Shown piece by piece: positions 23,901-59,100 of a DNA stretch of 64,000 nucleotides. Origin of the DNA: Owenia fusiformis (lineage: Eukaryota; Annelida; Polychaeta; Sabellida; Oweniidae). The stretch is from assembly GCA_903813345.2 (NCBI GenBank), contig CAIIXF020000001.1:26029915-26093914 (forward strand), given 5' to 3'. Position 1 is the first letter of the stretch; each line of letters opens with the position of its first letter. The notes under the pieces were generated by a model, which was not told the origin of the DNA, did not search any database, and saw only the letters and a list, made by a program, of their open reading frames with translations. Made by a program: the position numbers and the translations under genes.

Positions 23901-26900
23901 CACACCTTGATAATATCTGGGGCATGGCCCCCGCCTGCTCCCTCAGAATGATATGTGTGGATGGTGCGGCCCTTGAATGCCTCGACTGTTTGTTCCACAC
24001 AGGAGGATTCATTGAGGGTGTCAGTGTGGATCATAACCTATATGTTCACATACAAAACAGATACATCTTCAATGAGTAACAACACAGAAATCATGTTTTC
24101 AATTCTTTCTGTTGGTTCATGTATGCATGTACATTGACCAATGGTTCCCTGTAGTAGGCCTGGGGAGTTAACTGTTCCTAAACCTTGACAGGGAATCCTC
24201 GGCGCATGTTGGGTACCAGTTTTGACATTTGCTATGGCAATAGACCCAACTTCTAGGATCTGGTATGAGAATGCCCCCAAAATTTTGGTTGGTATGGGAA
24301 CATACTGATATCTGAGGGTTCAGCCAAGGACCCCAACCGAATTTTGTATACAGTGAATCCCCGGAGTAGTAGGCATGTATCTCAAACTCTGTTGGTATGC
24401 ACTTTTGTATAAAGATAAAAGTTTTTAAAAAATCATTTTGAAAATAAATTCCTGGCTATTCCTCTTCACACAATTATTTAGACCTCTATGTTAAATCTCA
24501 GGATTACATAGTCATAAGTCATAATATTCATACAATCTCATATAATCATAAACACTATATACCCTAAAGAAAATTAAAGATGGATATACCTGTACATCAA
24601 GTTTATCAGCTACATTGAGACACGTGTCTACAGCTGCAGGAGTAGACCCCCAGTCTTCATGCAGTTTTAATCTGAAAAAATATTCAGATAAGTTAGCGTG
24701 AACTTTTTTTTTCACATTTATGCTTAATATAAATAACCTCTCAAAGACAATACAATGTCACCATGAAGAAGTAGTGTTACATAAGAGAAAATGCAGCATC
24801 GAAATAAATAACTCTAGTGTCAACATGGAGATACACATGTAGTGTCACCAAACAAAAAGGTGTCACAATAGTGATACAGTTAAGTGCAAAACCCACATGA
24901 GTTATTGTCAATAACCATAACTTCTGTTGTAGAAATACTTACCCTATAGCACCAGCTTTAATCTGCTCTTCCAGTTCATCACACTTGCCAGAACTATTTG
25001 AAGTGTTCCCTTTACCAGTGAAACCAAAGTTCAGTGGGAATGCATCTGTACTTTGGATCATAGCCCTGACAATGAAAATATTCTATCAAAACTAGGTATA
25101 ATTCTGCATACATAAATTATTAGGCTCAATAGATGTTTTTTAAAAACCAAAGTTAAGTGGGAATGCATCTGTACTTTGGATCATAGCCCTGACAATGAAA
25201 ATATTATATTAAAACTAGGTATAATTCTGCATACATAAATTATTGGGCTCAACAGATGTTTTTTAAAGTTTAACATTATGTATTATCCAGAACATTTTGA
25301 ATGGTCATTAAGGTTAGAGTTTTATATATTTGCATGGTTTTTCCCCAATATGTTACATATAAAGAAGGCCTAGATTGTAATGTATCATGGGCCCCTAGTG
25401 TACATTGACAGCGGAGTTAAAGATTTGCGAGACAATTATATTGTTTTACAGATATGTCCTGTTGAATTAATATAAATCATTCATACTTGATATGATTAGG
25501 ACCAGGAGTACATGTAGTTGCATTTGACCCTGTAGCAGGACCCGTGCCCCCTCCAAATATTGTAGTGATCCCTGCAGCTATAGCCTCTTTAGCCAACTGG
25601 GGGCATATAAAGTGGACATGGGCATCTAGGGCACCGGCAGTTACAATCAAACCCTCACCAGCTATCACTTCAGTTCCCACACCAACCACCAGTTTCTGAA
25701 GTATGGATAGTTGCAAGTGGTTAGTTGACATCTGGTTGAGTTTCTAGAAGGCTCATGTTCAATGTCATGTCTGCTGGTTGAGTCTATGTCATGTCTAGTT
25801 GAATCTATGTCATGACTAGTTTACATATGATTGAGAATGACTGAGTCCAAGTCATGTCTAGTTTAGTTTAATTTAGTTGTCAGGTTGAGTCAATGTCATG
25901 TCTTGATGAAGCTATGTCATGTCCGTGTCACATCTGATCATGCCAGTTCTCAAGCTGGAAGTTTGGTTACACATTGGTTCATCTACTAATTTTCTATTAA
26001 ATGGCTTATAAAATACTGGAGGAACAAATAAACATAAAAAATATATATACCTCACTGACATTGTCCATTACATCAGGATTTCCTGCTTTCCCTATATCAA
26101 CTATCATACCATCCTGAAACAAACATTGCATCAATCTTCAACATAATGTAATCTTGCTTCAAAGCCTTTGGTCATGCTGATATCGTAGAATAACAGATCA
26201 TATCAAATAATTTACAAACACTTTATGAATCCTTAAAGACTTATTGTAACAAATACAGCATTCAGTGAAACCTGTATATATATCCGAACAACCCTCTAAT
26301 CCGAATACTTCTCAATGTGAACACTTTTTCTCTGACCCAAGTGTGTTCTCTTCCATTGACCTACATGTTAGAAAAACCTTGAAATGTGAACACCTGTTAA
26401 TTCAAACAGTTTTAACTGGTTCCATAGGTATTTGGATCAGACAGGTACTCAATTCTCACCTTAATTCCAATGTCAGCTTTTACAATACCAGTAGCAGCAT
26501 CAACTATGAGAGCGTTTGTTATAACAGTGTCTAAAGCTACATTGCTGCACACTCCTGCAGCCTGGCCCATGCCCTCTCTTAACACCTAAAACAGATTCAA
26601 TGATAGAGAACATTAAATTACAGACTCATCCACAATGTGCGTGCATGTATAGATGCTCAAAATGTCAACAACTTGAGATGACTTGAAAATTCATTGAGGT
26701 TAATGTGAATGCTATCTGACCTAACTGGGAAAAAATGTAACATTTATTTGAATTTTTATTTTAAATATTTATTTCATTTCAATTTTTCATAATAATTTTA
26801 CATAAAAGAGAAAATCTTTTCACAGGAAAAATCACTGCTTGAATGCCCATGGTGACAGGTCTAAAATGAAAGTCTGGTCACGAGAAACAAAATTTTTTTT

Positions 26901-27741
26901 GGTCTAACCTTTCCACCTCCAAACTTGCACTCATCGCCATATACTGTGAAATCTTTCTCCACTTCAATAAATAGAGTTGTATCTCCGAGTCGCAACTGAA
27001 ACGAACAAAAAATTATTCTAATGTTAAGCTAATGAAGAAAAGGAAATATTTGAATTTTTCATCTGATCTCAAAGTAACATAGCCTGAAATGGTCAAATTA
27101 CATATTTATCATTATTTGTACTTCTACAAATCACCGAGATTTTGATACAAATAACATTTCTGTATTAATGCACATTACATAGTTTGAGTGATAGTACGAG
27201 CTCAGCAAAAAGATGGCAGTAAGTATCCATATTTTCTCTATCCATCTTGTCGCTATGGTTTGTGTGTTCATGTTTGTAATAAGACAAAAAATTTTGTTTC
27301 TGTCATGTGTCCCCTTTTTCTGTTCTGGTTCCCTCAGGATTATTAGGAATAAAAGATCTAGGGAAATCAGCACAACGTGGGGGACCAGAGAGATGTCATG
27401 CATTGGTATTTACTAGTATATAAGCTTAGGTTGATAGACTGTTCATAATAAGATGGCGGTGTAGCCAACTGGTTTATATACATGTACTGTACTCTCTTTA
27501 AGAGTATTATTAACATATGAACTTTATCATTGCCATCATTATATCAGCCTAAAACCTAGAAACGTTACCAACTGATTCTTACCAATCTGCAAAGGGTGTA
27601 TTCACTAATTAATATGAACATATATTTAGTAGCATAACCACATACCTTATCTCCAACAGTGGGACCATATGTGTGGGAGTAATTGAACCTAGAAATGGTG
27701 CAACAGTCGGCTTCAGGTGCAACTACCTTACTCTGTTGAGC
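20979..27741 (-). CDS. Urease alpha (catalytic) part, exons 8-21
   Basis: Residues 268-860. Exon 8 opens with [12 protein letters not shown]. Exon 12 carries the HVH nickel ligands, exon 13 [10 protein letters not shown], exon 14 the carbamylated-lysine segment, exon 15 the longest catalytic block ([23 protein letters not shown], flap CHHLD), exon 16 [19 protein letters not shown], exon 18 KYTINPAI and exon 21 the C-terminus. A short Asn/Ser-rich insertion ([11 protein letters not shown]) in exon 13 shifts numbering about four residues relative to jack bean. Confidence 0.96.
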
Positions 27742-30700
27742 CTACAAACACAATTAGGAATTGGAACGAAGCATGGAAAATATGCTGAGGTCACCAGCTT
27801 GTATATTAAAGCTAGCTCTGACTGAAAGTCCAATCCTTTTACAGTTTGGTGTTTTCATCAGTAATATGGCTGCCTGTTGGTATCGGGGAAACTGTCCACA
27901 AATAATATGCCGTGCTTTGACATATTTACCCGAAAAATATTAATAAAATTGCCCCATCATATTCTGAGTTGGAGTTAAAAATTCAACTTGAAAATCCCTC
28001 TATTATGATTACAATGATTACATTTTCATGGAAGCATTTCAAAAGATCGTTGTCGGAAAATTTACAGTATTTGAATAGTTATGGGGAAGGGGATCATTAG
28101 CCTTAAAAGCTTTCCGATATCGTTCCTGGGAATTTTACTTGTACCATGTTGGATATAAACTTAGGATTCTTCAGTAATATAAAATACAAAAGATTTTATG
28201 CAGATACTGTACAAAGATACAGATTGGAATAATTATAAAAAAATTGACTGTTTTACGATATTATGTTAGATATAGTGTGACTTAATGCAATGATGCATAT
28301 CAACATTCCTCAAACACAGTTATGGGTGGGGGGGGGGGGTCATAGATAAACTGTTCAAATACAGATAGTAATCCTACATTGAACTTTGAGATGCTACCTA
28401 ATGTATGTACAGTATGTATGTATTCTTTATTTGCGTCTATTTATTTAGACAGTTACATGGTATACAATGATATAAGGTAAAAAAGGGAAATATAAAAGTT
28501 ACATGTACAAAAAATTAAAATGCCTTAACATCCTCGCCCTGACCCTGGTTGCTCATCTTTATCTTTCTATTGAATGTCCTTGTATTAAAGATGAAAAGTA
28601 CTTTGGTAATTTAAATACAGATAGTATAAATGTTTGCTTCGTGAATTATGTTTGTTTTAATGCCCCTTTAATGGCATCTCATGGTTGGGAGCTACTTGAA
28701 AATATATCAAGACAACATAAGCCTCAGCCAACAACAGTAACACCCACTTAAAGATATAACTACATGTAAGCCCAAATGTTTGGGTTAACTAGTTCTTTAT
28801 CACCCTATACAAAGAAATCGGACCGTTCCCAACAGACTAGAAAGGGTGACAAAATTGACAATGTGGGACCAGCGGTGAGAAAATGGTCCTTAACAGAAGT
28901 TGGCCATCATTTTTGAAAAGCTGTAATTATTTATTGATTGAGTAAAAAATATTTAGTAGGTAGTAGTAGTAAGGAATGCTTTGAAGTTCATTCGTGAAAA
29001 GTTCATGAAAAATTAATCAGGATTAAAAGGGCTGGAAAAAAAAGGAAAGACTTATTCTGTCCCAGCTACTATGTTATATTGATTTTAATAAAAGAAAAAA
29101 ATACACCTGTCTGAAAAAAGTTCTGTTAATGTTCTTGGTAAATAACTTCATAGTCTGGTCATCATTGTCACAGACTGAAAGTTTTTTTCCTATAGAGGCC
29201 TATCGATGTTTAGGAGACCTCGCAATCAATAAATCTTAAATGAGTCAGTTGGGACAATATAATGATGTCATCATCTTATTACTATGACAATACTCTGACA
29301 TAATCACACAAATGGTCCTAGAAATTATTTCTCTCAAAGTTCTTGATTTACTTGATGTACTGTATAGAATCATTCCCCTACAATTAGTATAACATACATT
29401 ACTTATAAGAGTTCATTCTGCTCTCGTCCTAAAACAGCTAGACAGTTACTTGCTTGACATATCAGGCTGCCATGACACGGGTTATAAGATCTAATAGGAC
29501 TCATATACAAGATTCATTGTGTTGATGTCAAATACAATACAATAAATATAAATCCAATGACAATCTGCTTTTTATTCGTAAATATAGTGCACCATTCAAA
29601 GGTTAAGTGAGACCCAGACAACGTGCAAGGGATTTTGAGAAAATAAAAATTGGCTACCTTAGGAAACTGATGTAAAAATGAAAAATGTGACTGATGTAAT
29701 TTAATTTTTAAGACTTTCTCAACATCATGGACAAGTAACTATGAGGCAGGCAAATCAACTACTTTCCGAAAATATGTGTATAATTTGGTTCCATTATTTA
29801 ATCCAATCAGCTCCCATGCTACTACCACCAATAAAAAATACCCAAACTATGCTTGTAAAAATATGTAATGTATTTCAATTCATCTTCATTACAGAAAAGC
29901 CTTTTAAACCACATTGTTCAATGTTACTTCAACTTGTTTTTGATATTTCATATAATATTGATTTATTTATTCTCACTTTTTAAATCAGTCGGGCAAAATG
30001 ACATATTTAAAAATACAATTGTTGGGATTAAAAAGCATTTTTCTGTACAATACATAGAAATATACAAAAACTTTTTGATTAGTCGATCAGTCAATTACTT
30101 TCTCTATTGAGAACACATCAATGTCTAGTTCAAAGTGAATTTGATAAAATGTACCAGGCAAAAGTGACATTGTTATCCTTGTGTGTCTACTTCAATGACC
30201 TTGTAAACCATGAATGAAGGCTTTGAACATCATGTAAGGTTGTTGACATCAAGCAATTTCTCAAAATTTTGTGACTGTTTCACACCATGAAGAAACGATG
30301 TATTCATATGCTGAGAATGTTTGGAGGTGTGTCAAATATAATGAAATATGATTAGCTGAAAATATATTCGAAATAAGGACAACTCTCTATATGGTCATTT
30401 TCTCTGACATAATCATATAATTATTGTGCACGACTTTAGCACTTGTTCCTTCCAGCTCGCTGATTGGTTGAGAATAGGCCAGCGCGGTAGGTGTGAAATG
30501 ATTTATGACCCGAGCTGTCACAAGCATCGGTCGTGGGGGCGGGGCTGCTAAACTGTAATATAGTCTATATAATAGGCAGAGGGTAGTTTATAACTAGACT
30601 CTGAGCACAGGGTACTCTGAAATAGATTATGTGACAAAGTAATGTTATGTATAAATGCTACTCACAGTGCTATCATTTTCCTCATTACCAAATCCTTGTT

Positions 30701-33700
30701 CCTTTACTTTCATCATGATCTTCTCAAGCTGATCAGGGTCCACAGCACCATCACATAATCCATTGCCACCACGTATAACCTTCTTACCCCCTATGGCCAC
30801 CAATTCAACAATTTTACTTTCACCTGGCTCAAACCGTAAAGCTGTACCAGCAGCAATGTTCTGAAAATACATACAGACAATGCTATTCTCGTTTTATATG
30901 AACATGTATACTGAAATTTCACTTTTGAAATCAAATCCAATTATAGTGTAGGATATTGTAGAATTATTTTTATCGCATTTGAATATCTTCATCATAAATA
31001 TGAGGATACTCACAAGCTGGTGAAAATTGTATTTCTAATGAATCATAGTATGAGATGTGAAGAAAAATTGCTGAACCTTTAAAAATTAAATATTTGTATA
31101 TATGTGCTGACCAAGGTTATTTGAAAAATTGAATCTTTGTGTGTTGACCAAGGTTATTTGAAAAATTAAATGTTTGTTGCTAAAGACACATTTTAAAACC
31201 AAGGACAAGAACTTCTATTCCAATTCCTTACCAGTCGCATTCCATAGGAGGCTGCCCTATCAAACCTTAGATATTTGTTTGTTTCTATAAAATTGTAATG
31301 GCTTCCTATCTGAAATAAAAGGATATATTTTATAAGAACCATGAAATAGTAAGACAGTTTCTGATATGCTTGGATAAATATGGTAATTTAAACTTTTTCC
31401 AATGGATAAGATCTACGGTTTTATTCATGTTATGTAAACTTCAATAGCACCAAGGGTACTGGTCTCATTTGATGCAATATTTTCAGGTGAAATGACAGCT
31501 ATACCTTAAACCATTTGTCACATTTCTTACATGTATACTCATATAGCAAGTTTAGCATTGTTAAACCTTTCAAAAAATGTTGTAGTCTATTGTTGTTACA
31601 TCAAAAATCAATGACAATGATACAATGTATATCCATATAATGGATAATCACTTGAGAGAACATATTTGTAAAATGAAAATCTTTGACAATTTTAGTAATT
31701 TTTTTGGACAAAAGTAGCGGCCATTTTGGGTTTTCAAGAACTGTTGTCTGAACTTCAAAACCTTTTTGAGAGGCTCAAGTGTGTAATTGGCTCACCTGTA
31801 TCGGTCTATCACACATTGATGTCACAACAAGTTGAACTCTTTCTCTGTCTTTGTTTATCTCAATGGGCCCTGCATTAGCTGGCACTAGCTCTCCTGGTGT
31901 TACATCCAAAGATGTGTCCACTTTTGTTAGTTTTTCCTCTTTCTGCAAGTACATACATGTATATGCAAGGACCTAATATAGTCTATTCACTACCTTCTTA
32001 TATTTCATTAACTTTATCATTCATCTCACATTCCAGACCATATTTGGGTTCTCTCTCAGACCAAGACCAATGCAATGGGCTTCATTTGCCTATAGTTGGG
32101 ACATTGGGATAAGGGTCAGGTCAACTAGACAGTTACCCTAAGATATTTACATTTTTCAATCGTTATTAATTCTTATGAAAATCATAACTAAGAGTATCAT
32201 TGCGTACCTTATTAGCAAATATAGTTACATTTGGAACTGGAAGAAAGCTTCCATATAAGGCCAGCTCCAAGTTACCATCTTCCCGGCAGATAGGTTTATG
32301 TACAGTCACCTGTGGGGGGAAATAATCAAACAGCATATATCATGAAGAATAATGATAAGAATGGGATGACAATTACATTTACTTAAAATCTAAACATGAA
32401 CTACTGTGTTGTTTTTGTTCTTTTGTTATATATTTAAATACACATACATCTCGGAGTGTCAAGAACATTACAGGAAGAAAATACAGAAGAACTTTTGCAG
32501 AGTTGCATAATTAGCAGGATGTAAAAAAACTCAACAAATTATCCTCAAAGACAGCTTATAAAAGGGTGCCCCGCCTACCCAAAGCAATGGCTACCATAGT
32601 AAACGCCATTACAATGGCATTGTCGCTAACCCATTGTATTTGATCTTATTTAATAGGTTAATATTTTCTACATCATCTGTGAAATTTTCAATGTGATTGA
32701 ATAAAGTATGAAGAATATGAGAGCAGTCGGTTACTTACTTTCTGATTGGGCCTCGTACCATGTAAAAAAGATTTTCCCCCAAAAATATTTAGCTGTGTAT
32801 TGATATTTGATGAAGTGATAATAAATGATGTACATTTGGGTTAGGTTTACAAACTCTTAAATAAATTAATCTTAAAACCAAATATATGTTCCCTAAGATA
32901 TCGCAAATGACAAAACTGACTTTACACAGGGAACAACAGATAAAAATTATGAAAGATTTTGGAATACTCCACCCAGCTGCCTGGTAAACTGATCTTTTAC
33001 TTTTTTTTATTGGGACAGGATAAGTATATTGATCAATCTCAGTCATAATATATATAATATTTCTTATACTAATGTATTTACCAACTTTGTACCATCATGG
33101 AATGTTGCCTCTATTTGAACATCTGGAATCATGTCTGCAACACCAGGTAGAACTTGTCTCTGGCCTATAATAATAAGCCATGTCTAAAATATGAGGTAGA
33201 ACTTGTCTGTGGCCTAAAATAACAAGCCATGTCTAAAATATGAGGTAGAACTCGTATGTGGCCTAAAATAATAAGTCATGTCTGATATATGAGGTGCAAC
33301 TTGTCTATGATTAAAAAAATTAAATCCTGTCTTTCTTCAATAGAACTTGTCTATGGCCTACAATAATGAGTCGTATCTGTCTTCAATAGAACTTGTCTAT
33401 GGCCTACAATAATGAGTCGTATATGTCTGAAATGGAACTTGTCTATGGTCTACAATAATGAGTCGTATCTGTCTTCAATAGAACTTGTCTATGGCCTACA
33501 ATAATGAGTCGTATATGTCTGAAATAGAACTTGTCTATGGCCGACAATAATGAGTCGTATCTGTCTTCAATAGAACTTGTCTATGGCCTACAATAATGAG
33601 TCGTATATGTCTTCAATAGAACTTGTCTATGGCCGACAATAATGAGTCGTATCTGTCTTCAATAGAACTTGTCTATGGCCTACAATAATGAGTCGTATCT

Positions 33701-35160
33701 GTCTTCAATAGAACTTGTCTATGGCCTACAATAATGAGTCGTATCTGTCTTCAATAGAACTTGTCTATGGCCTACAATAATGAGTCGTATATGTCTTCAA
33801 TAGAACTTGTCTATGGCCTACAATAATGAGTCGTATCTGTCTTCAATAGAACTTGTCTATGGCCGACAATAATGAGTCGTATCTGTCTTCAATAGAACTT
33901 GTCTATGGCCTACAATAATGAGTCGTATATGTCTTCAATAGAACTTGTCTATGGCCTACAATAATGAGTCGTATCTGTCTTCAATAGAACTTGTCTATGG
34001 CCTAAATAATGAGTCGTATCTGTCTTCAATAGAACTTGTCTATGGCCTACAATAATGAGTCGTATCTGTCTTCAATAGAACTTGTCTATGGCCTACAATA
34101 ATGAGTCGTATCTGTCTGAAATGGAACTTGTCTATGGCCTATATTAACAAAGTGATGTATAGGACTTTCTCCTGTACATGTTTTTGTCAAAAAATGTTCA
34201 GTGTTGGTAGGTGTTCACTACAAAGGGTGATTCATACAGAAGTCAGTAGAGTATGTGCTGAGGAAGGGTGTTTACTAGAGACAGGTGTTCACTATAGAGA
34301 TGTGTTCACTAAGACAGGTTTTACTCTAGTCGGAAATTCTGGGAAGATTTTTTTTTTAGTCTAAAATAATCCAAAGACACTAACTTAGACTGGCAAGGAT
34401 TGAAATATATAAGACAGATCAAACACAAAGAAAAACTTTGAAATAATTCTTGGGTTTCCTCTTAAAGCCCATTGAATGTACATTACCTAATAATTCACGT
34501 CCTTTCTGCATGAGGTCAGCAACAGTATTGGTACCATCCCGGACAAACTCCAGTAACTAAATAGAAAAGGTGATCATAGAATTTACAAACTAATGTACAG
34601 AGCTTCAGATTCAACTACGGATTTTATATTAAAACAGTCATACATTAACAAGACATCGGACATTGGCTGTACAATTCAGTCAGTGTAGATCAAAAAGAAA
34701 TAGCTGTTGCATAGCCAGAATGATACTTTGAGAAATAGTCCTCTATCAATGAAGTTGTAAATTAACTGTATACCTTATATTGATTGTGCAATCTGAATGA
34801 TGGAAATGTTTCTCTGTTCCATGATTGAATCACATAGCCTAAAGTAGCCATGATGAGATGGACAAGGCACTTGCCTTGTCACTTTTTACAGGTTTGGAAA
34901 TATTTTTGGCCTTGTCTTCCTGGTCACGCCACTGAATAGATTCATAAAATTAATGTAATAATAATATCGTGTTTTGGCATTTTAAGTTGAACATTGTATA
35001 CTTACTGATCTCGCCTGTATACATTTGTATTTACCTGACTTGAGATGAGAGCCACTGCCTCAGGATGGTTCAATTTTATGCCTCTGGCCAACCTTTTCTG
35101 TGCAAGGCATCCTGTCTGATGTATCAACAGGCCTTCAATCTCCCTAGGACTTAGCTTCAT
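20979..35160 (-). CDS. Urease, complete 21-exon gene (860 aa)
   Basis: Hydrolyses urea to ammonia and carbamate using a bi-nickel centre. Exons, high to low: 35160-35035, 34556-34487, 33164-33082, 32309-32208, 31942-31796, 31309-31232, 30860-30666, 27741-27646, 26995-26909, 26585-26460, 26113-26051, 25695-25487, 25065-24943, 24671-24590, 24037-23793, 23402-23288, 23057-22968, 22462-22364, 21937-21838, 21650-21420, 21094-20979. All introns are GT-AG and phases close. Gamma, beta and alpha parts are fused as in plants. Active-site residues, by homology with jack bean urease, are present: H417 and H419 (HVH), K504 (site of carbamylation, GLKLHEDWG), H533, H559, flap C606-H607 and D647. The C-terminus RYFLF is typical. 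ATG 35160 begins MKLSPREIE, the canonical gamma start. An AG just upstream may mark a 5' UTR intron. Nothing suggests decay. Confidence 0.97.
22680..22815 (-). mobile_element. Pogo/Tigger-like MITE fragment, urease intron 17
   Basis: Shares GTATGTGCAGAGGAAGGG, GAGACAGGTGTTCACTAGAG and ATACAGAAGTCA with the intact copy at 59076-59253 (in the opposite orientation) and the copy at 34.2 kb. The ends are eroded. Confidence 0.65.
23538..23660 (+). repeat. Interspersed repeat, family A, copy 3
   Basis: AAGGCATGCAAAATGTCACC through CATTTGTTACAACTGCCAAA and CAAAAAAGTTG to GTGATGGTGACA. It lies in urease intron 15, antisense to the gene. Confidence 0.65.
25021..25260 (-). repeat. Two-copy tandem duplication of the exon 13 acceptor
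   Basis: A block of about 120 bp holding the first part of urease exon 13, its acceptor and flanking intron is repeated directly upstream (copies at about 25024-25140 and 25143-25262). The copies are about 96% alike, so the duplication is recent. The outer copy keeps CTGACAATG (the acceptor on the minus strand) and about 45 bp of exon but has no donor of its own, so it is a decoy acceptor rather than a full extra exon. Confidence 0.9.
26263..26452 (+). mobile_element. Pogo/Tigger-like MITE, urease intron 10
   Basis: Starts CAGTGAAACCTGTATAT, followed by TCCGAACA and CTCTAATCCGAA words typical of pogo-type ends, and fades near GGATCAGACAGGT, within 10-20 bp of the exon 10 donor at 26459. The right end is diverged. 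Confidence 0.55.
27747..30660 (-). other. Urease intron 7, 2.8 kb
   Basis: The longest intron of the gene. It is mostly AT-rich, with a G-tract (28324-28340) and a GC-richer stretch near 30.45-30.55 kb containing a CCAAT-box-like GATTGGTTGA and GGGGGCGGGG. The latter could be a transposon remnant or an internal promoter. No exon is recognised. Confidence 0.5.
30666..31942 (-). CDS. Urease beta-like part, exons 5-7
   Basis: Residues 128-267. Landmarks are [17 protein letters not shown] (exon 5), [17 protein letters not shown] (exon 6) and [14 protein letters not shown] followed by [15 protein letters not shown] (exon 7). Exon 7 also carries a charged linker, [20 protein letters not shown], leading into the alpha part. 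Confidence 0.95.
32208..35160 (-). CDS. Urease gamma-like part, exons 1-4
   Basis: Residues 1-127. Exon 1 encodes [10 protein letters not shown]...[20 protein letters not shown], exon 2 [20 protein letters not shown], exon 3 [19 protein letters not shown], and exon 4 VTVHKPI plus the plant-like linker [13 protein letters not shown]. Intron 2 (33165-34486) is filled by the 46-bp minisatellite and a pogo-like MITE. Confidence 0.95.
33160..34140 (-). repeat. 46-bp minisatellite copied from urease exon 3 acceptor
   Basis: About 21 units of 46 bp, the inner ones nearly identical. Each contains AACTTGTCTATGGCCTACAA, which on the minus strand reads TTGTAG followed by GCCATAGACAAGTT. The true exon 3 boundary (33164) reads TTATAG followed by GCCAGAGACAAGTT. 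The array therefore starts at the real acceptor and runs upstream through intron 2, the units nearest the exon being the most diverged. If a distal copy served as acceptor, the reading frame would meet a stop within about 55 bases. Confidence 0.93.
34160..34328 (-). mobile_element. Pogo/Tigger-like MITE, urease intron 2
   Basis: Starts near TCCTGTACATG, then GTTCAGTGTTGGTAGGTGTT, ATACAGAAGTCAGTAGAG and GACAGGTTTTACTCTA at the end. It is a diverged copy of the element at 59076-59253 and abuts the end of the 46-bp minisatellite. Confidence 0.7.
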
Positions 35161-37222: not shown

Positions 37223-40007
37223 CTAAATTATTTTGATTTCACCATTTTCATTTTCGTACACTGACAAAATAATGTTATATTGAACATTTTCTGAAAGAAT
37301 TGTATATGTGGTATCATTGGTATTTTAGGCAAGAGCCGACTGCCCTACTTATTGCAAGGCCATCTCTTAAAGAACTAGTATAACATGAACAGTGGTTTAA
37401 AAAAAACAGGTTAATTGGCCTCCATGTCTCTAAGGACATTCATAGATATTTTCTCGATTTGTCTATTGGTATGGATTATTTAAACAGCTCATAGAATATT
37501 GAAATCATTTATTGTCCAGATCCACTCATATTTGATTTTAACACAGATTCAAAATGATATAAAAAACCTACTGGGAGCTGTCATTTTGAATTAAAGATTC
37601 CAAAATGGCATTGTCAGTGTAGAAGAAAACATAAAATCAATCTTAGTTTCTGAATTGTTACAATTTGTGGAATCTACTAAAGTCATTACACGTCATTAAC
37701 GTCCATATGTTTCTCTAAATACACATGTTCTTTAGAGTATAATATCTGGCAATTTCTCCTATGTCTGTAATGCTATAAAGCTGTTTTAAAGTCATTTTGA
37801 ATCAAAAATAGGTCAATAACAAGGTGCTGACCGCTATTTCTGGTGGTGACATAATTACTATATAACTGTCTTTTCAAGGTTCTTAATTTCATCAGTTAAA
37901 ATGCAAAATATCACACTTCTGTCCCAGTCCCACTTACCAACATCTACATTGACCTTCCTTCATATCCTATATCCTTACAACTTTACTCCCACTGTGTATA
38001 ACTAATTCACCACCTTAATTACCAACAAGTATGCCCAAATTCAAAAAACAATGTAAAAAACAATGCCAACAAGTATGCCCAAATTCAAAACACAATGCCA
38101 ATACCTAATCAAGTAAAAAAAACACTAAACTCCATAAAATACATATCATGAAATCATAGACCAAGTAATGTATATAGCAAGGTATTGCAAAATAAAAATA
38201 TTTGGGCATGGCTTTCCTTTAAGTGATCATTAATGGGATTTGTGAACAACTGTGATCTCAAATGGTTAAGGACATTCATTGATGTACATGTATACATGGT
38301 ATGGTAGGATTAACTTTGATAAGCAATTGTAGATCAAATAATGGACGTGTTTAAGGACAACTATCAGGTAAACTGAGAGTTCACCTACTTAAAAACAATT
38401 TCCCATTTACAAACATTACTTCATATGTCACAATGACAATTGTCAAATAGAAGCTGTATTCAGTTGATTATTATACAAATTATCACAATTGAGAGTAATA
38501 ATTTTTTTCATTTCCACTTGTTAAGTTTGAGAGAACCTCTAGAACTAAAATTACACACCAAATTAAGATCTCCAAATTTAATGTGACAATTCATAAGTTC
38601 CAGACAAATTCACATTATCTGATAGATTCAATAAAAAAAATTATTGGGAGCAAAATCTAGAAATGGAATTGTAATGAACTTTATTTTTTAGAAAACAAAT
38701 ATGACTAGAAATAATATGAGCAAAAACTACTCTAAAGTAGAAAGAATTATTTGAAAAGGTAGTTTGAGATCTGATTCTACCTGATTCAAAACAAACCACG
38801 AATAGCAAAATTAAATTCATAAAACCTTTGCCTTCCTTGAGGACATTTATCTTGTTTACTTGATGTTATACTCCTTCTATGTTAATTTTTATACTGCACA
38901 AACACTCTTTACTTGTAAATAGTGATTATATTTTGGATTATCTGACTTGAGTCAACAGATAGATGGAAATATCAATGATATTTTAAGTAAAGGTTTCTTT
39001 TTAACTACCATTTCTTCCTCACACTACACAGGACCTGTGATTACACAAATTACTACACAGAAAAACAGAAGTAAGTAGAATGTTTTAAAATAATAATAAC
39101 AGAATGATGTCTCAGTGTCAACGAACAAATGAACACATGTGTGCAGAATACACTTTTAAGAATTCTACTACAGTCTTAAATCAAATTCACTAAATATAGA
39201 GTGTGGTTATGAAAGGTTAAGACTTAACTCAAGACTATGTTTGTGTTCATTCTGTTTTTTATAACTATGTTTTAAATCTAAGAAATAAAAAAATAAACTT
39301 ACTTCACTAAGTTCCTGGATTATAATATAGAGTTTGACCTTTTATTGTCTTCTTATGTTATCCTTAATTGGTACATGTATATTCTAAAATCCTGTAATAG
39401 TTTCTGTTGTTGATACCATTTCAATACAATAACTTCCTCTATTTTATAAATAATGTGTTTGTTTGCGCTTATTTTATAACCTTACAGTTCTGCAAGTTAA
39501 TTTATTGATAATAAAATAAGAACAGTTCAAGGCCAAATCAAAAGATTGTCTCTAACTCAAAATATGTAGGTACAGTAAACACACAACCATACATTGTTAT
39601 GTGCAGCTTTATGGTAAGTAATTCTAAAATAAAAGAATAAAACACATTGAGAACAATATTGCACCTTTTAATCCTTGCACCTTTTAGACTTTCAGGAGGG
39701 TATATATAATATATATATATATACTGAATTATAGCAATAGTATGATAAGTGTGAAATTTGTAGAAGAGTTAAATCAGTTCTAAAATTCATACCACAGTTG
39801 GAAATGTGTATAATAGGTTTTAAAAAATCCAAAATGGTCTTTTTAAAATTTACCCAGCATGCAAAAAACTAATCAGTTTTTAGAATTTCATAACAAGAAA
39901 CACTTCTGAAATTTAGAATCAATCCCTTCAATGGTTTGCTTGGATTGCATAGACAAAGATTCTGGCTGGGATAGTGATACAACTGGCCAGCAAACTGATC
40001 ACAATAT

Positions 40008-44378: not shown

Positions 44379-44426
44379 ACATGTATCAGTCAATAGAGTA
44401 AAGCAAACCAATTCAAGTAAAAATAT

Positions 44427-47400: not shown

Positions 47401-48630
47401 GCCAGGCCACAGGAAAAGGGGTCTTATCCTATGGCCAGGCTCAAATATATACATTTAACAACAACAATGATAAAATACAAAGGCAACAATGGACAAACAA
47501 AACAACATAATCCAAATAGAAGTTTCTATTATTTCTTGCATGAATCAGATTTAAAACTAAAAGAAATACATCATTGTAACTTTATTCATGCCATCTATGT
47601 GTATTTTGATTAGGAGGTGACAAGATTCCAAGGAAAGGAGGGCCAGGAATTACACAGAGTGACCTCCTAATAGTCAATAAGACTGACCTGGCTGAGGCAG
47701 TTGGAGCAGACCTTCAGGTAATCTATTACCTGACCCATATCTGTAATCTATTACCTGACCCATATTGGTAATCTATTACCTGACCCATACTGGTAATCTA
47801 TTACCTGAGCCATACTGGTAATCTATTACCTGACCCATACTGGTAATCTATTACCTGACCCATACTGGTAATCTATTACCTGACCCATACTGGTAATCTA
47901 TTACCTGACCCATACTGGTAATCTATTACCTGACCCATACTGGTAATCTATTACCTGAGCCATACTGGTAATCTATTACCTGACCCATACTGGTAATCTA
48001 TTACCTGACCCATACTGGTAATCTATTACCTGACCCATACTGGTAACCTATTACCTAACCCATACAGGTAATCTATTACCTGACCCATATTGGTAATCGA
48101 TTACCTGACCCATACTGGTAATCTATTACCTAACCTATACAGGTAATCTATTACCTGTCCCATATTGGTAATCTATTACCTGACCCATACTGGTAATCTA
48201 TTACCTAACCCATACAGGTAATCTATTACCTGACCCATACTGGTAATCTATTACATGATCCATACTGGTAATCTATTACATGATCCATACTGGTAATATA
48301 TTACCCGATCCATATGGGAAATCTTTATCTGACCCATACAGTATACCAATCCCAAAGCAAAAAAATGAAGTATTATATACAGAGTGTGATACAAAAAATG
48401 TACACAATTTGTCACTCCCAAGTTGCGACTTAAATACTCTTTTAGAATGCATAATCTAAACTTTTTTCAGGTCTTGATTATTTTGTATGTTAATTTTGCA
48501 GGTTATGAGACGAGATGCTGATATGATGCGACAGAGTGGACCTACCCTGTTCACCCAGGCAAGACACAATGTGGGCATACAGGATGTGGCAGACCATATC
48601 CTCAAGTCATATAAACAAGCACTTAGTTAA
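44427..48630 (+). CDS. Urease accessory GTPase UreG, 6 exons
   Basis: SIMIBI-class GTPase that delivers nickel during urease maturation, normally with UreF and UreH/D. Exons: 44427-44606, 45860-45984, 46231-46327, 47153-47300, 47614-47717, 48502-48630; phases close. Counting from ATG 44427 the protein has 260 residues. The N-terminus is histidine-rich ([19 protein letters not shown], about residues 18-36), as in plant UreG, and probably binds metal. Then come P-loop GGPVGSGKT (68-76), TNDIFTREDW, the metal-binding Cys-Pro-His C127-P-H129, ESGGDN (158-163) and the guanine-specificity motif NKTD (205-208). The start is uncertain: an acceptor at 44451 could join an upstream exon. Both the third and fifth introns begin with minisatellites that copy their donor sites. 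No break is seen. Confidence 0.95.
45646..45679. repeat. Short perfect-type hairpin
   Basis: CCATGGGCTTTCAACTAG pairs with TTGAAAACCCATGG, one mismatch, in UreG intron 1. Confidence 0.7.
46283..47015 (+). repeat. 41-bp minisatellite copied from UreG exon 3 donor
   Basis: About 16 diverged units of about 41 bp. Each contains ATGCCCTCATGCTGCTATNA then GAGAGGTAAGAATGTGGG. The first unit is the last 40 bases or so of the exon itself (codons for CPHAAIRE) with its donor at 46328. Later units repeat that coding end and the GAG-GTAAGA donor. The later donors are closer to the GTAAGT consensus than the true one (GTAGGA). Read-through from the exon meets TAG within four codons. Confidence 0.92.
47716..48335 (+). 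repeat. 25-bp minisatellite copied from UreG exon 5 donor
   Basis: About 24 units of 25 bp: GGTAATCTATTACC then TGACCCATACT. The first unit is the true donor (CTTCAG before GTAATC at 47718), and several later units have the identical CAG-GTAATC. GGTAAT/ATTACC is itself an inverted repeat, so each unit can form a small hairpin. Units are nearly identical in the middle and diverge at the distal end. Confidence 0.93.
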
Positions 48631-50462: not shown

Positions 50463-53141
50463 TTATTTAACCACAAATTTTGCAAGGGACTTCTCAAAGA
50501 ACTCCCTGTCTGTCATGTCTGGTTTGAAGCAGTCTTTCCCTGAAGCTTCATCAATTTCACCAGACTTTTTAACCTTGAAATGTTGGCCATCATTGAGAGA
50601 TACCATGCCATTCTTATCAGTGGAAGGAACTGAATAGAGACCATGATGTTGTCCCGAGCTCACTGTCTCATTAAATTTTCCAGAGCACATGTAGGCTGAA
50701 ATGAAAGATCCTTATTGTACTATTTGTATTGTAAATTCACAATTTTTCTGTTGTTTTTGTTCTGCAGTTGAGCATATTTCCACCCCAATTTTTTTCTTTT
50801 TTTAATGTGAGAATTTAATATTTTAACCTTTATTGTATTGCATTTTTATATTCCTTGAGGTATAATGTCAACAAGTCATGATTTGAGTTTGAAGGTCAAT
50901 GGCATCAGCATGGTGTATGGGTGAAATAAAAACTTCACTCTGACTTCTTTGAGTCCCTTTTTATATAATCCTTGTGAGCTCTATTCAAGGAAAAGCAGAG
51001 ACTGGATCCAGCATTGAGATGTCTTTATCAATGTGAAATACAACTCACATGAGAATTGAACTCAAGTTAATGTAAAAGGTTGTAACACTGTCAAGGGAAC
51101 AATATAAAATTACTGAACTTAACCAGTCCAAAGGCTGACTGTATACAATCAGTGCCCTATTATGACTTCAACATGAAAAACTTTTGAAAGACTCATTTCT
51201 TACTTTCTTACACTATTCATCACATTTACTTATAAGTTCTGCTATCACAGACACCAAACTAATATATGAATATATATTTATCTTACATAGAAATCCAGAT
51301 GTTTGGCGACCTCCAATATCTGATATTTTCACATCAAGATGGTGTTTCTTTGTTTTCTTGATGAAGACCGTTAGGATCTTCCCAACCTTAACTTCAGCTA
51401 CTCCATAGCCATTAATCCTCACTCTAACCAATGGTTCTGTATCCAGATAAAACCTTTTGATAGAAGAAACAATAAACTCATTCATCAGTTCTATTCTTAG
51501 CACTGTTATTTTACCTTAGTTAGAGATCGTAAATTCCAATTTGATTTCTTGAGGTTTTTTTGTAAAGAAGATTAGAAGTTGAAGAACTGAAAAGGTATTA
51601 TCAACTGGTATATTTTGGTTGTATACTATATAGAGTCTACACTAACCTAAGATTGTCCTCCAAATTTTCAGGCCATTCCAATGGGTGACCATGTATAACT
51701 ACATGATTAAGATTTGCCACCAATTCTTTAAAGTTGTCTTTTCCCCTGTGACTTACAGTGACTTGATCTAGGAATTTCACCAATTCCTCACCATTTACAC
51801 CTGCATTTTGGGCATTTTTGAAAGCTCATTATTTTTCACTATACAAGTGTCTAATCCATCTATTTTTAAAATTGTTAGCGACTATAATCATTAAGTTGTC
51901 TACTGACTTTGAAGTTCAGAAAAAGTGTTGTTGCAAATTTTTAAAAGCAAACCTTTAGTCTCTTTGTCTAACTTCATCGCCTCATCCTTAGTCATAAATT
52001 TGGCAGTTACAACAGTGCCTATTGTAAGGGTAAAGCAAAAAATAGTTTTTATATTAAATGTTTTCAGAGTTTGCTACTCTAATAATTCATGAAACCGCCT
52101 GCCATGTATGTACATGTAGTTCAGTGTAATTTGGTTTATTCCCATTTCGCCCCTTCCCATTTCGCCCCTCATTTATTCCCATTTCGCCCCTTCCCAATTG
52201 GCCCCTTTCCCAATTGGCCCCTTTCCCATTTGGCCCCTTTCCCATTTTGCCCCTTTGCCATTTCACCCCTTTCTCGTGTTGCCCCCTTCCCATATTGCCC
52301 CTTCCCATGTCGCCCCTTCCCATTTCACCCCTTTCCCATTTCGCCCCTTCCCATCTCACCCCTTCCCATTTCACCCCTCATTTATTCCCATTTCGCCCCT
52401 TCCCAATTGGCCCCTTCCCATTTCGCCCCTCATCTATTCCCATTTCGCCCCTTCCTAATTGGCCCTTTCCCATTTCGCCCCTGTTCCATTTTGGTAGGGG
52501 CGAAATGGGAAGGGGCAAAATGGGAAGTGGCGAAATGGGAATGAATGAGGGGCAAAATAGGAAAGGGGCCAATTGTGAAGGGGCGAAATGGGAATAAATG
52601 AGGGGCGCAATGAGAAGGAGCGAAATGGGAAGGGGCCAATTGGGAAGGGGCGAAATGGGAAGGGGCGAAGGGGGAATGAGGGGCGAAATGGGAAGGGGGC
52701 ATAATGGGACGGGGGCGAAATGGAAGAGGGGCGAAATGGGAAAGGGGCAATTTGGGAAAGGGGCAAAATGGGAAGGGGTGAAATGGGTAGGGACGAAATG
52801 GGAAGGGGCCAAATGGGAATAAATGAGGGGCCAAATGGGAAGGGGCAAAGTGGGAAGGGGCGAAATGGGAAGACACCGTGTAATTTAGGTCATGTGACAA
52901 AAATGCAAATGGCTTCTTGGGGCTGACAAAATAACTTACTTAAATCATTACAAATATAATTAGAACACACAATGTTCCTTTTTTCATATACATGTATGTC
53001 CTAATCTTATAATAAAAGAAACAGTACCAGTGTCATTGTCAGTGAAGAATTCATAGGTTTTTCCAGGAGTCCCAAATGCCTCGATACAGAGCAATGAATC
53101 AGTGCCTTCCATTCCACATCTGACATGGGGGTCCCCGACAA
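50463..53141 (-). CDS. C-terminal ITIH-C/VWD-like domain, exons 13-17
   Basis: About 213 residues. The start VVGDPHVRC, then LLCIEAFGTPGKTYEFFTD and DTGTVVTAKF, match the pattern of inter-alpha-trypsin inhibitor heavy-chain C-termini (DPHF, then LCF-I--PG---L--D--TG--V-G). Later come VRVRINGYGVAEVKVGK, a basic strand VFIKKTKKHHLDVKISD, SGFLSYMCSGKF, and a tail ending EFFEKSLAKFVVK. GDPH also opens von Willebrand D domains, so VWD is the alternative. The ITIH resemblance rests on pattern only. Confidence 0.55.
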
Positions 53142-56100
53142 CTAAACATATTTAATTTGATAAGTGCCACCTCATTGGTTGATTAAAGAGTGTATAATAT
53201 TACACTTCTTGTAAAGGGTAGTGAATGGTCTTTTAAGACATACTACGTTTAAGCCATACATTGCCGATTTAGGCAATTTATGGCTTATTCTAAATTTAGC
53301 AATAACCTCGATGTGGCAATTCAGGATTTTTAGAATTTGCATGCAAAATCAAAAGCAAAATGTTTTTAATTTCAACTTAACAATTTTACAAAAGGTTGGT
53401 TCATCTGACAAAAAGTTATTTCTGCATTGACTAAACAATAACAGCTAAAATTGGATAATACATACATGTATTGTATGTGCAAATGAAACATAATAGTAAT
53501 TGTAAGTTTGCCACGTACCACACATGCTTGATCTGCATGTCTCTGGAATACCAGTTATCGCGTTTGTTGTACAGTCAGTATTCGCTACACAGCCTGAAAA
53601 TCAAATCATACAAAACTTAATCAAACTAAATCAAACCTACAAAATGTACAAAAATGTCAAAAGTGTTTCTATGTTTTTCTGGTCTACCAGTAGTTGGGAA
53701 TATAAATTCTGCTGTGTGTTTTGTTCAATGTGGAGGGGCTTCAAAAAAGTTCTGATTATATTAGTTCATTCAATAAGATTAGATCAGATCATTTGACAAG
53801 ATTAGTTAATTTGTCTATCCTTGGAAGTTTTCCTCAACTGTCAAGTGTTGTTCTCTGTTCTTCACATTCCTGACCTAAATTGGCCAAAATATGTCAATTT
53901 TTATGATATCCTCATTTTCAAGTGGGTGCAAATGGATTTTCAGGAAGGTGTAAGCCTATTTTCAAGATCTCAAAAGGGGCAGCACCCACAGGATATCACG
54001 AATATAACATGTGTTTATTTTATGAAATATAAAGAAAACTCTATTTACCACAAACTAAGTCACTGTTACAAACTCTGCCATCTCCAGTATTGCCATCATT
54101 GCAGAAAAAACTATCTGGTAACTGATTAAAGAGGTTTATGAAGCATCCTTTAAAATTCAGAAATAGACAATATAAGTAATGAAGAATTGAAGAATTCCCC
54201 AGCTTTTGAAGAACTTGAAGCTTGGAAGATGATGCAATCTTTGCAATGATATACTCCAAAATACTTTCCATGAGCCTTACTGCAGAGGGATCTACAAGTA
54301 TTAGGTTGGATATGCAAAGGGCTGGGAGTTGTATGTAGAATGAATTGGGGGAGTTTTTTCATGCATTTTGGTAATGTTTTTCATCTAAAAAACATCAATA
54401 TACTTTAAAACATTTTATTGACTATAAGATAGCACCATATAATCCAAAAAATATTTCTAATTTTCGAGGATTATCTGTGGATTAACACCCAGGTATTTTG
54501 ATTTTTCAAACTTCAGAGGGCTACATATCATCATTGATAATTAATGCTTTTGAATAATAAAAATGCTGTTTTAAATAGGTTTCACAAATGCCAATAAAGT
54601 GAAGACGTTCCTTAATCCCTAGAATATTCTGTTGGAGGAAATTCCCATAGAAATCCAATGGTACAGTTCCAAGCAGATTTTGAGATAACAGGAAAGTAAA
54701 TCTGTAATACACACCTCATTGGGTTGGGATATAAATCAACAAAAAAATGTGCACATAAGATGTACAATACAATGTGGTATTCTTATATTTTTTCAAGGAC
54801 AATCTCTTAACTTTGTTAAAATTATATTTAAACACATAGAGTAGCAAGCCCCGTAAATATATTCCAAATATATCAACAATGGAGCATGTTATGTAGAAAT
54901 CTGCCCACTACTATTTGAGTTATATGCTGGATGGACAGACAGATGGACGGGAGATTCACTATATCACTAACAAAACATTAATATCAACCATTATCATTAT
55001 TGAATTTTGATGGTCCCTTACCACATTTATCAATGGCACAGAAAGATCCCCTGGCTGCAGAATTAGAACCACTTGAGCAATCACCTGATGTAGTACAACC
55101 TAAAAGTATTGAATATTATGAGATAGTATTGCTATATCAGACACCAAATATCTAAACATAGTGCTGTTTATATAATGTGTAACATTATAAGTATAATATT
55201 GTAAGTGTAATATGGCACCTATGCCACAAAATTTTGTTCACTGGCTTGTCTTAAATAATATTCTAACAGAATGAACTGATTGTTGTAAATAGAAAGTAAT
55301 ACTGTGACATATTGTACAAAGTATCAATTATTATTCGAGGCAAAGCGTTTTATTGCTGAATAAATCAGATTATAGATGACCGCTGTAATCATAAATGTTG
55401 TGAAAATGTACATTTTATAACTTAAAGACCCACTTTGCATATTTTCAACATTTTTGATTTAAAACATGCACTTTGTCAAAAATGTGCATGCACTACTAAT
55501 GATCTCTGAACTTCAAATGGTGTTTTCTATGTGAGTCATTTTTTTCTTGGTTCAATATTAAAGCAAATCAAGCTTTGTGTCATATTTGAGTGAGTGTGGG
55601 AGTAACATGTTTCAATGATTTTTTTTTTTTTCTTCTTAATACGTATAGTGGGCCTTTAAGCAATATTCTGTTCATACATTTAATCCCTCACTTTTGCTAC
55701 ATCCATGTAAGTCCATTTCAAAGAATTACATTGGTAATTCTCTGGGTTCTTAAAAAAACAAATTCCAAACTGAATTAAACATTAAACAAGACTATATTCT
55801 CTAACTTTGAGCCAAACTATAATCTGCAACTTAACTTTCCCACCAAACTTAAAATTACAGGCAGGTCCTGACTTTATGTGAAAGTAACTAATTGGGGAAC
55901 AGTGATTTAAAACTTGTCAAAGTTAAGATACCCTCGTTAGGGAAAATACTTGAAAAGCCCTGAGCACTTAACTGTGTCAATCCGAACATGTAGAATGAGA
56001 AAAAATTGAAAAATTAAAATGCATGATGAACATACCACATACTGAGTTGACACATTTGAAACCATATCTCTCAATGTCACAGTCACTGTCAGTTGTACAG

Positions 56101-59100
56101 CCTACAATAAGAGAAACATGGAATACATCAATGCCTGGATGTCACAGTCACTGTCAGTTGTACAGCCTACAATAAGAGAAACATGAAATACATCAATGCC
56201 TGGATGTCACAGTCACTGTCAGTTGTACAGCCTACAATAAGAGAAACATGGAATACATCAATGCCTGGATGTCACAGTCACTGTCAGTTGTACAGCCTAC
56301 AATAAGAGAAACATAGAATACATCAATGCCTGGATGTCACAGTCCCTGTCGGTTGTACAGCCTACAATAAGAGACACATGGAATACATCAATGCCTGGAT
56401 GTCACAGTCACTGTCAGTTGTACAGCCTACAATCAGAGAAACATGGAATACATCAATGCCTGGATGTCACAGTCACTGTCATGTGTACAGCCTACAATAA
56501 GAGAAACATGGAATACATCAATGCCTGGATGTCACAGTCCCTGTCGGTTGTACAGCCTACAATAAGAGAAACATGGAATACATCAATGCCTGGATGTCAC
56601 AGTCCCTGTCGGTTGTACAGCCTACAATAAGAGAAACATGGAATACATCAATGCCTGGATGTCACAGTCCCTGTCGGTTGTACAGCCTACAATAAGAGAC
56701 ACATGGAATACATCAATACCTGGATGTCACGGTCACTGTCAGTTGTACAGCCTACAATCAGAGAAACATGGAATACATCAATGCCTGGATGTCACAGTCA
56801 CTGTCATGTGTACAGCCTACAATAAGAGAAACATGGAATACATCAATGCCTGGATGTCACGGTCACTGTCAGTTGTACAGCCTACAATCAGAGAAACATG
56901 GAATACATCAATGCCTGGATGTCACAGTCACTGTCAGTTGTACAGCCTACAATAAGAGAAACATGGAATACATCAATAAGAGAAACATGGAATACATTAA
57001 TGCCTGGATGCCACAGTCACTGTCAGTTGTACAGCCTACAATAAGAGAAACATGGAATACATCAATGCCTGGATGTCACAGTCACTGTCAGTTGTACAGC
57101 CTACAATAAGAGAAACATGGAATACATCAATGCTTGGATGTCACAGTCACTGTCAGTTATACAGCCTACAATAAGAGAAACATGGAATACATCAATGCCT
57201 GGATGTCACAGTCACTGTCAGTTGTACAGCCTACAATAAGAGAAACAAGGAATACATCAATGCTTGGATGTCACAGTCACTGTCAGTTGTACAGCCTACA
57301 ATAAGAAACATGGAATACATCAGTGCCTGGATGTCACAGTCACTGTCAGTTGTACAGCCTACAATAAGAGAAACATGGAATACACCAATGCCTGGATGTC
57401 ATAGTCACTGTCAGTTGTACAGCCTACAACAAGAGAAACATGGAATACATCAATGCCTGGATGTCACAGTCACTGTCAGTTGTACAGCCTATAATAAGAG
57501 AAACATAGAATACATCAATGCCTGGATGTCACAGTCACTGTCAGTTGTACAGCCTACAATAAGAGAAACATAGAATACATCAATGCCTGGATGTCACAGT
57601 CACTGTCAGTTGTACAGCCTACAATAAGAAACATGGAATACATCAGTGCCTGGATGTCACAGTCACTGTCAGTTGTACAGCCTACAATAAGAAACATGGA
57701 ATACATCAGTGCCTGGATGTCACAGTCACTGTCAGTTGTACAGCCTACAATAAGAGAAACATGGAATACACCAATGCCTGGATGTCACAGTCACTGTCAG
57801 TTGTACAGCCTACAATAAGAAACATGGAATACATCAGTGCCTGGATGTCACAGTCACTGTCAGTTGTACAGCCTACAATAAGAGAAACATGGAATACACC
57901 AATGCCTGGATGTCACAGTCACTGTCAGTTGTACAGCCTACTATAAGAGAAACATGGAATACATCAATGCCTGGATGTCACAGTCACTGTCAGTAGTACA
58001 GCCTACAACAAGAGAAACATGGAATACATCAATGCCTGGATGTCACAGTCACTGTCAGTAGTACAGCCTACAATAAGAGAAACATGGAATACACCAATGC
58101 CTGGATGTCACAGTCCCTGTCAGTTGTACAGCCTACAATAAGAGAAACATGAAATACACAAATGCCTGGATGTCACAGTCACTGTCAGTTGTACAGCCTA
58201 CAATAAGAGAAACATGGAATACATCAATGCCTGGATGTCACAGTCACTGTCAGTTGTACAGCCTACAATAAGAGAAACATAGAATACATCAATGCCTGGA
58301 TGTCACAGTCACTGTCAGTTGTACAGCCTACAATAAGAGAAACATAGAATACATCAATGCCTGAATATCTTACTTTTTGGAATTTCAATGTAAAATAAAA
58401 ATACCTTTAGAGACTTCAATGAATGGAGTTTCCTACAAATAATTGAGGCTTTAAGCAATGCACATAAGATCGAACGGGAAACCTGTAAGTATAAATCGCC
58501 CTATACAAATGCATGTAGTTTTCTCACAAAAACAATCGTTCGGTTTACTTCGTCCGTTACTTGACTACACATCATCGTGTACTTTGCTGATAGTAAAACA
58601 GATGGTTTTCAATGATACATATTTAAACATGCTCGTTTCTTAAGATATTTGAAGCTAAAACATGTATGACATACATCACTTTCATCAGAGCATTATACTA
58701 TGCATCGAAATCCAAATTGCCAGCATAGTATTCAAAAGACATGAGTATAATGATTCCAGTTGCCACCAACGTGAAATTGCAAATCTCCCGTTCTAAACAC
58801 AGATCTGAAACTGATAGGGTATCTGAAGTAGACTAAGTAGTGCTTGTTTTGTCTACGAGCTATATACATTACTGTATAAATTCATTGGTTTTGCGTTCAC
58901 GGTTAAGTTGTGAAAAATATAGCTAGCTTAAACTCTCAACTTTACAAATATTTCTTACCACATGCACCTCCACTGCATACAGCACCTCTGTAATTGGGAA
59001 ACTGATTTGTATTACTGCAGTCACTATTGGTGTTGCATACTGTAAAAGCGAAGCATTCAATTCATTTGCTAAGTACAGTAAAACCTGTCTTAATGAACAT

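Follow-up and report, generated by a model that had tools for sequence, protein, structure and literature searches.

Tandem arrays at five splice junctions of three neighbouring Owenia fusiformis genes, likely minisatellites of the mirage kind

In a 64,000-nucleotide stretch of the annelid Owenia fusiformis (assembly GCA_903813345.2, contig CAIIXF020000001.1, positions 26,029,915 to 26,093,914 of the forward strand; hereafter the window), five tandem arrays are located at splice junctions of three neighbouring genes, which encode a urease, a UreG protein and a cysteine-rich protein. Each array contains one exon edge of our gene models, as determined from the output of Tandem Repeats Finder (TRF) and the exon map, and the affected edges are three acceptors and two donors. 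It is always the outermost copy on the exon side that holds the authentic junction; the remaining copies, which carry decoys of the splice site, lie on the intron side only. We consider it likely that these arrays are splice-junction minisatellites of the kind termed mirages in amphioxus, which have grown from junction-spanning duplications, are tolerated through exon definition and carry decoys that are neutral.

Array structure in the rebuilt genes

The three genes were rebuilt by spliced translation with GT-AG introns, and the exon numbers used here are those of the resulting models. Together they comprise 45 exons and 42 GT-AG introns, with 85 splice edges, 84 of which border introns that lie fully within the window. 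When the exon-proximal sites are used, the models yield open and recognisable proteins, namely urease, UreG and a continuous frame of cysteine modules. A draft of the N-terminal part of the urease (648 amino acids, in which a few junction residues are wrong) matches urease 4g7e across the full query (E 8.9e-271), and the UreG protein matches the Pfam family cobW, PF02492 (CobW/HypB/UreG; E 4.6e-35).

The arrays (Table 1) consist of 2 to 35 copies of units of 25-123 bp. Their exonic part is 20-45 bases long in four cases and a single base in the UreG exon 6 array. An earlier reading of the DNA, made without database searches (the sequence-only reading), had described five tandem arrays at splice junctions of these genes, each starting exactly at an exon edge. 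The arrays are indeed present, but in four of the five the start lies 19 to 44 bases within the exon, the exception being UreG exon 6, whose array starts on the edge itself. The same reading had taken the units to be unrelated and the arrays to be separate events; in agreement with this, none of the arrays has a match outside itself within the window at E 0.001. The urease exon 3 array is composed of 46 bp units, with 21 full copies (the authentic one and 20 decoys) and one partial copy. Near the exon, its authentic copy and the next two are 49 bp long, followed by one diverged copy of 47 bp.

Table 1. Positions in the window of the five arrays, of the exons whose edges they contain and of the three genes
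Feature	Positions	Strand	Description	Basis
Array at urease exon 13	25021-25267	-	123 bp x 2; acceptor; 45 exonic bases	TRF
Urease exon 13	24943-25065	-	acceptor-side start 25065	spliced translation
Array at urease exon 3	33145-34141	-	acceptor; 20 exonic bases	TRF and segmentation
Urease exon 3	33082-33164	-	starts 33164	spliced translation
Array at UreG exon 4	46302-47021	+	40 bp x 18 plus partial; donor; 26 exonic bases	TRF and segmentation
UreG exon 4	46231-46327	+	ends 46327; exon 3 of the sequence-only reading	
Array at UreG exon 6	47717-48339	+	25 bp x 25; donor; 1 exonic base	TRF and segmentation
UreG exon 6	47614-47717	+	ends 47717, the array beginning on its last base; exon 5 of the sequence-only reading	
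Array at cysteine-rich exon 9	56074-58363	-	65 bp x 35; acceptor; 28 exonic bases	TRF and segmentation
Cysteine-rich exon 9	56036-56101	-	starts 56101; 66 bp; phase 1-1 module	
Urease gene	20982-35160	-	21 coding exons; 860 amino acids; exact GT-AG splicing	
UreG gene	43505-48627	+	7 coding exons; 265 amino acids	
Cysteine-rich gene	50466-63440	-	17 exons found; single open frame	

Inverted repeats were compared across the 85 edges. The longest is found at the UreG exon 6 donor, where a perfect 9 bp inverted repeat, TCAGGTAAT-CT-ATTACCTGA, spans the donor at 47714-47733; the other four array edges have stems of 4-5 bp, as do most edges. The RNA fold of the UreG exon 6 donor region is better than that of its shuffles (z -3.3), and the TCAGGTAAT-CT-ATTACCTGA hairpin could conceal the authentic GU of this exon. 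A palindrome rule common to the five edges was rejected, since only UreG exon 6 stands out.

Copy patterns and decoy splice sites

The copy patterns of the arrays are those of ordinary minisatellite dynamics. The urease exon 13 array represents a two-copy stage and the UreG exon 4 array a diverged stage, and the arrays at UreG exon 6 and cysteine-rich exon 9 are expanded and fairly homogeneous. At urease exon 13, the decoy and the authentic copy share 96% identity, and the array length of 247 (2 x 123 + 1) allows an end overlap or homology of at most 1 bp. The UreG exon 4 array is the most diverged, with 74% identity between decoys, and no clear homogenisation gradient was seen along its copies. 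Identity between decoys amounts to 91% at UreG exon 6, where divergence is visible at the far intron end, and to 95% at cysteine-rich exon 9. In the urease exon 3 array, identity to the array consensus is 0.72-0.78 for the authentic copy and the three copies next to it, and 0.93-1.0 for the other 17 copies. The authentic copy at cysteine-rich exon 9 is equal to the consensus, with no divergence at the boundary, suggesting that the coding edge itself may participate in the exchange between copies.

Overall, the splice dinucleotide is intact in 86 of the 96 decoys. AG is retained in 16/20 decoys at urease exon 3, in 1/1 at urease exon 13 and in 34/34 at cysteine-rich exon 9; GT is retained in 12/17 at UreG exon 4 and in 23/24 at UreG exon 6. 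When set against every pair of neighbouring bases in the units of the array, the dinucleotide is kept at 80% versus 90% (urease exon 3), 71% versus 74% (UreG exon 4), 96% versus 91% (UreG exon 6) and 100% versus 95% (cysteine-rich exon 9). The decoy dinucleotides are neither consistently protected nor clearly removed. The exon-derived parts of the decoys in three arrays contain 44 distinct single changes, 9 of which are synonymous. This proportion matches the fractions expected by chance (0.24, 0.22 and 0.17), implying that there is no coding constraint on these parts; a module cysteine is lost in 3 of the 34 cysteine-rich decoys. Conservation of the decoys was therefore rejected as a sign of function, with dinucleotides near the pair average and exon parts free of coding constraint. 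The pattern is that of neutral decoys.

The sequence-only reading had also supposed that in the four large arrays the use of a decoy would bring a stop codon into frame, and that decoys could tune gene output through nonsense-mediated decay (NMD). The stop codons are confirmed: a premature stop arises in all 109 decoy sites tested, which are chosen sets of 12, 24, 38, 1 and 34 sites and not every GT or AG. The tuning is not borne out. If the arrays were kept for this purpose, the stops and the many decoy sites that are as strong as the authentic one would be accounted for. However, GT or AG is not consistently conserved above other positions in the four multi-copy arrays, and the exon-derived pieces are free of coding constraint. 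The stops themselves are expected anyway, because insertions of at least 25 bp in AT-rich DNA (the window has ~34% GC) are likely to give them, and we rejected them as evidence of NMD. Moreover, splicing seems to be undisturbed in the mirages described in the literature (PMC3087553, PMC3902484). We regard retention of the arrays for NMD tuning as very unlikely.

Comparison with mirages and other boundary repeats

Mirages are tandem repeats that span exon-intron boundaries and were so named in amphioxus (PMC3087553). Amphioxus mirages are reported in the globins Gb6 and Gb9, at both kinds of boundary, with Adh3 and other loci cited in addition (PMC3087553). Their units measure 10-160 bp, splice signals are kept in many but not all copies, and the copies at the boundary escape homogenisation (PMC3087553). 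Results of reverse transcription polymerase chain reaction suggest normal splicing, and the mechanism is given as unclear (PMC3087553). PGBD5 and TnC are further amphioxus genes with mirages (PMC3902484).

The Owenia arrays resemble these mirages in that the unit holds both exonic and intronic sequence in 5/5 cases, UreG exon 6 with its one exonic base being a weak case, and in that both donors (2) and acceptors (3) are affected. The units of 25, 40, 46/49, 65 and 123 bp fall within the mirage range, the splice dinucleotide is likewise kept in many but not all copies, and the coding frame is intact, which for the Owenia genes is judged from the sequence alone with the exon-proximal sites. The exon-side copies of the urease exon 3 array resemble the exclusion of cluster-boundary copies from homogenisation in mirages, whereas the cysteine-rich exon 9 array has no such copies. 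The two systems differ in copy number, which reaches 35 here and is 3-6 in globin Gb6, and in density, with five arrays in three neighbouring genes here. By the features tested, the five arrays would be classed as mirages, UreG exon 6 weakly so; length polymorphism and somatic instability also count as mirage features. Mirages are a known, if little-studied, kind of repeat, and what may be new here is the host, the density and a copy number of up to 35.

Duplications at exon boundaries have been reported in other settings too. In the potato RdRp gene, a duplication crossing an intron-exon boundary became a new intron (PMC4974935). This case is similar in that a boundary-crossing tandem duplication copies the splicing signals, and different in that a new intron arose there, whereas an existing intron only lengthens here; no new intron or exon is seen in our gene models at the five arrays. 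In human genes located in segmental duplications, exon-intron boundaries carry internal tandem repeats (De Grassi and Ciccarelli 2009, PMC2812944). These share the minisatellite-size units, the position and the variable copy number with the Owenia arrays, and differ from them in being partly kept in mRNA and in making alternative introns in recent paralogs (PMC2812944); the Owenia arrays are not known to be used alternatively. Exons, whole or partial and in some cases including splice sites, occur within introns of amphioxus VCBP3 (PMC2632668). Boundary-spanning arrays are not described in the excerpts of PMC2206037, PMC6823432, PMC4039745 and PMC3045353. Among the matches listed, from a literature with few subscription journals covered, the two papers seen to apply the name "mirage" to such repeats both concern amphioxus genes, and we make no claim that they are unreported elsewhere.

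If mirages are common beyond amphioxus, they would provide natural experiments on splice-site choice, in which a single authentic site faces as many as 34 near-identical copies. By a simple score, many of these decoys match it in strength, and the correct site is apparently set by nearness to the exon. Junction arrays would also provide a reserve of ready-made splice sites with which introns could lengthen or new ones form.

Array placement in the window and its possible origins

For each of the 84 edges, the 40 bases around it were compared with its own intron and scored as z. Five edges are strong (z 24, 21, 18, 16 and 10), the next best is 2.3 and nothing is intermediate, and hidden degenerate arrays at other edges were rejected on this ground. 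In a control with random mid-intron positions, 69 of 346 had z >4; these fall into 29 distinct 200-base bins, of which 26 are in or at known arrays and the remaining ones lie near 22.6, 59.8 and 62.4 kb. Since this control involved a smaller number of shuffles and a minimum value for the spread, enrichment was assessed with array-level nulls instead.

In these nulls every array was collapsed to a single unit, which was then given a random position in the gene bodies or in the whole window; the limit of 50 tolerated coding bases is our own choice. Arrays with a TRF score of 250 or more were defined as large. Neighbouring TRF rows were merged at 33145-34141, across the two arms of an array at 52.1 kb and at 935-1131, and a poly-C run (44335-44359) and an in-exon repeat of UreG exon 2 were excluded from the counts. 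Five of the six large genic arrays contain an edge, as against 0.88 expected (P 3e-4). In wider genic sets the count is 5/8 (P 0.0017) and, after addition of the weak arrays, 5/15 versus 1.5 expected (P 0.013); over the whole window it is 5/7 (P 2.7e-5) and 5/24 (P 0.003). A first version of the null, in which the arrays were not collapsed, gave P between 1e-4 and 3e-3. The five arrays fall within 26.7 kb of collapsed gene body. All of these P values are post hoc and come from a single window, and they overstate the case because the window was chosen for this very pattern.

The sequence-only reading had noted no other large array inside an exon or in mid-intron apart from the one at 52.1 kb. 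This stands for large genic arrays as defined above, but smaller mid-intron repeats do exist, among them TRF repeats at 31103-31181, 47022-47086 and 62601-62662. Smaller duplications were also sought by an offset scan, which replaced self-BLAST and gave 0 hits in the block-shuffled window; self-BLAST returned 2 further local duplications and missed several of the short-period TRF repeats. Apart from the seven large arrays, the scan detected 11 local duplications of smaller size; 5 lie within genes, all in introns, and none (0/11) is at an edge. If the urease exon 13 array, with its two copies, is counted among them, 1/12 seed-like duplications is at an edge, compared with 4/6 of the other large arrays. 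The edge excess is confined to expanded arrays, and this implies that, if it is real, expansion or survival rather than seeding may be its cause.

Growth from chance junction-spanning duplications, which we favour, would proceed as follows. A single local tandem duplication, whose unit by chance spanned an exon-intron junction, would have started each array, and unequal exchange or slippage would have extended it into the intron, with the copies partly homogenised on the way. Under exon definition, a splice site is picked by its nearness to the rest of the exon. The exon-proximal site would pair with the other end of the short exon and everything beyond it would be removed as intron, leaving the remaining copies as spare decoys under neutral drift. 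Nearness of this kind could select the true site equally for donors and acceptors. The sequence-only reading had offered two explanations. One, slippage of repair or replication at exon edges, may or may not operate here. The other, tolerance of duplication only where one true site survives, accounts for the survival of edge arrays, but not for their excess over large mid-intron arrays that would be equally harmless.

Some observations weigh against neutral growth and tolerance. Only two other large arrays, at 52.1 and 19.3 kb, are present in the 64 kb, and neutral tolerance alone would predict most large arrays in mid-intron or intergenic DNA and not at edges. Some decoys, furthermore, are as strong as the authentic site or stronger. 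When scored with a simple matrix built on the remaining 40 donors and 40 acceptors, decoy GT positions reach or exceed the authentic score in 8/34 cases at UreG exon 4 and in 3/24 at UreG exon 6, and decoy AG positions do so in 2/93 cases at urease exon 3, 1/10 at urease exon 13 and 21/104 at cysteine-rich exon 9, implying that the local signal alone is insufficient to choose the site. In addition, columns that derive from the exon vary slightly less than those from the intron in 4/4 multi-copy arrays, with rotation ranks for column variability of 2/46, 6/40 and 5/65, and of 20/25 in the case with a single exonic column. This is a weak trend that the neutral account fails to explain.

The position of the arrays might require no special process at all: junction-spanning duplications would occur at their expected low rate, and the window would be an extreme sample that was noticed as such. 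We see this as a real possibility, if somewhat short of an even chance. In its favour are the window and thresholds, both chosen post hoc, the modest excess once weak arrays are added and the lack of edge positions among the 11 smaller duplications; it is harder to reconcile with an excess that is concentrated in the largest arrays, five of the six in genes, and with the gap that separates the five strong edges from the rest of the 84. These latter features, together with the whole-window count and the occurrence of such arrays in several unrelated amphioxus genes (PMC3087553, PMC3902484), would be expected if a process in the lineage preferentially made or expanded tandem duplications at junctions, for example through break repair tied to transcription or splicing. 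Against such a process are the single window, selected for the pattern, in which P is only 0.013 with weak arrays included, and the likely seeds, which show no preference (0/11 at an edge, 5 intronic). The five edges share no sequence or palindrome rule, and the end homology at urease exon 13 is at most 1 bp. The offset scan made us slightly more doubtful of a junction bias and slightly more inclined to chance. It seems to us rather unlikely that such a process operates, and likewise that junctions in this animal lineage are hotspots at which arrays arise or, more probably here, expand independently of the unit sequence, with introns lengthening inward from the edge and carrying dozens of spare sites of working strength. 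An edge excess across the genome, if true, would point to junction-linked birth or expansion of repeats, and junction hotspots, if true, would open a general path to longer introns, common to amphioxus and at least one further phylum, and would put exon definition to a natural test.

An assembly artefact or collapsed haplotypes would be the most prosaic origin of the arrays, and tandem arrays are indeed error-prone in assemblies, so that the copy numbers may be wrong. However, point changes are both scattered among and shared between the copies, as in natural minisatellites, the units are unrelated among the five arrays, and the exons remain intact. We consider this origin highly improbable.

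The 52.1 kb array (52135-52872), located in an intron of the cysteine-rich gene, is a large palindrome of ~16 bp units (TTCCCATTTCGCCCC), with the reverse complement in the other arm and a short centre near 52490. The 19.3 kb array (19270-19989; 162 bp x 4.4) has diverged relatives at 39824-39918 (77%) and 16978-17058 (70%). It is probably part of a mobile element family, judging from these relatives, and was rejected on their account as an event comparable to the junction arrays. The repeat in UreG exon 2 (44487-44532) is small and in frame, 24 bp x 1.9, and lies within a histidine-rich stretch. An intergenic direct duplication at 13347-13649 has copies of 139 bp, 79% identical and 164 bp apart. 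Nested inverted repeats occupy 40007-40544, with arms at 40007-40116/40435-40544 (93% complementary) and 40136-40258/40293-40415 (84%), as in a foldback element or one resembling a miniature inverted-repeat transposable element. No Rfam match was found anywhere in the window at gathering scores.

The cysteine-rich gene consists of small exons of phase 1-1 in which the pattern GC...DC...C...CG recurs, and after these comes a GDPHV stretch. Its protein has no Pfam match at E 0.001; the GDPHV stretch presumably resembles a VWD domain, although the Pfam search gave no match. The 5' end of the gene was not found within the 64-kb window, and its start probably lies outside. Urease and UreG are neighbours in divergent orientation, ~8.3 kb apart, in what is an animal-type genome. 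An intronless open frame on the + strand (15460-15714) matches the Pfam family Pcc1 (PF09341, E 4.9e-27).

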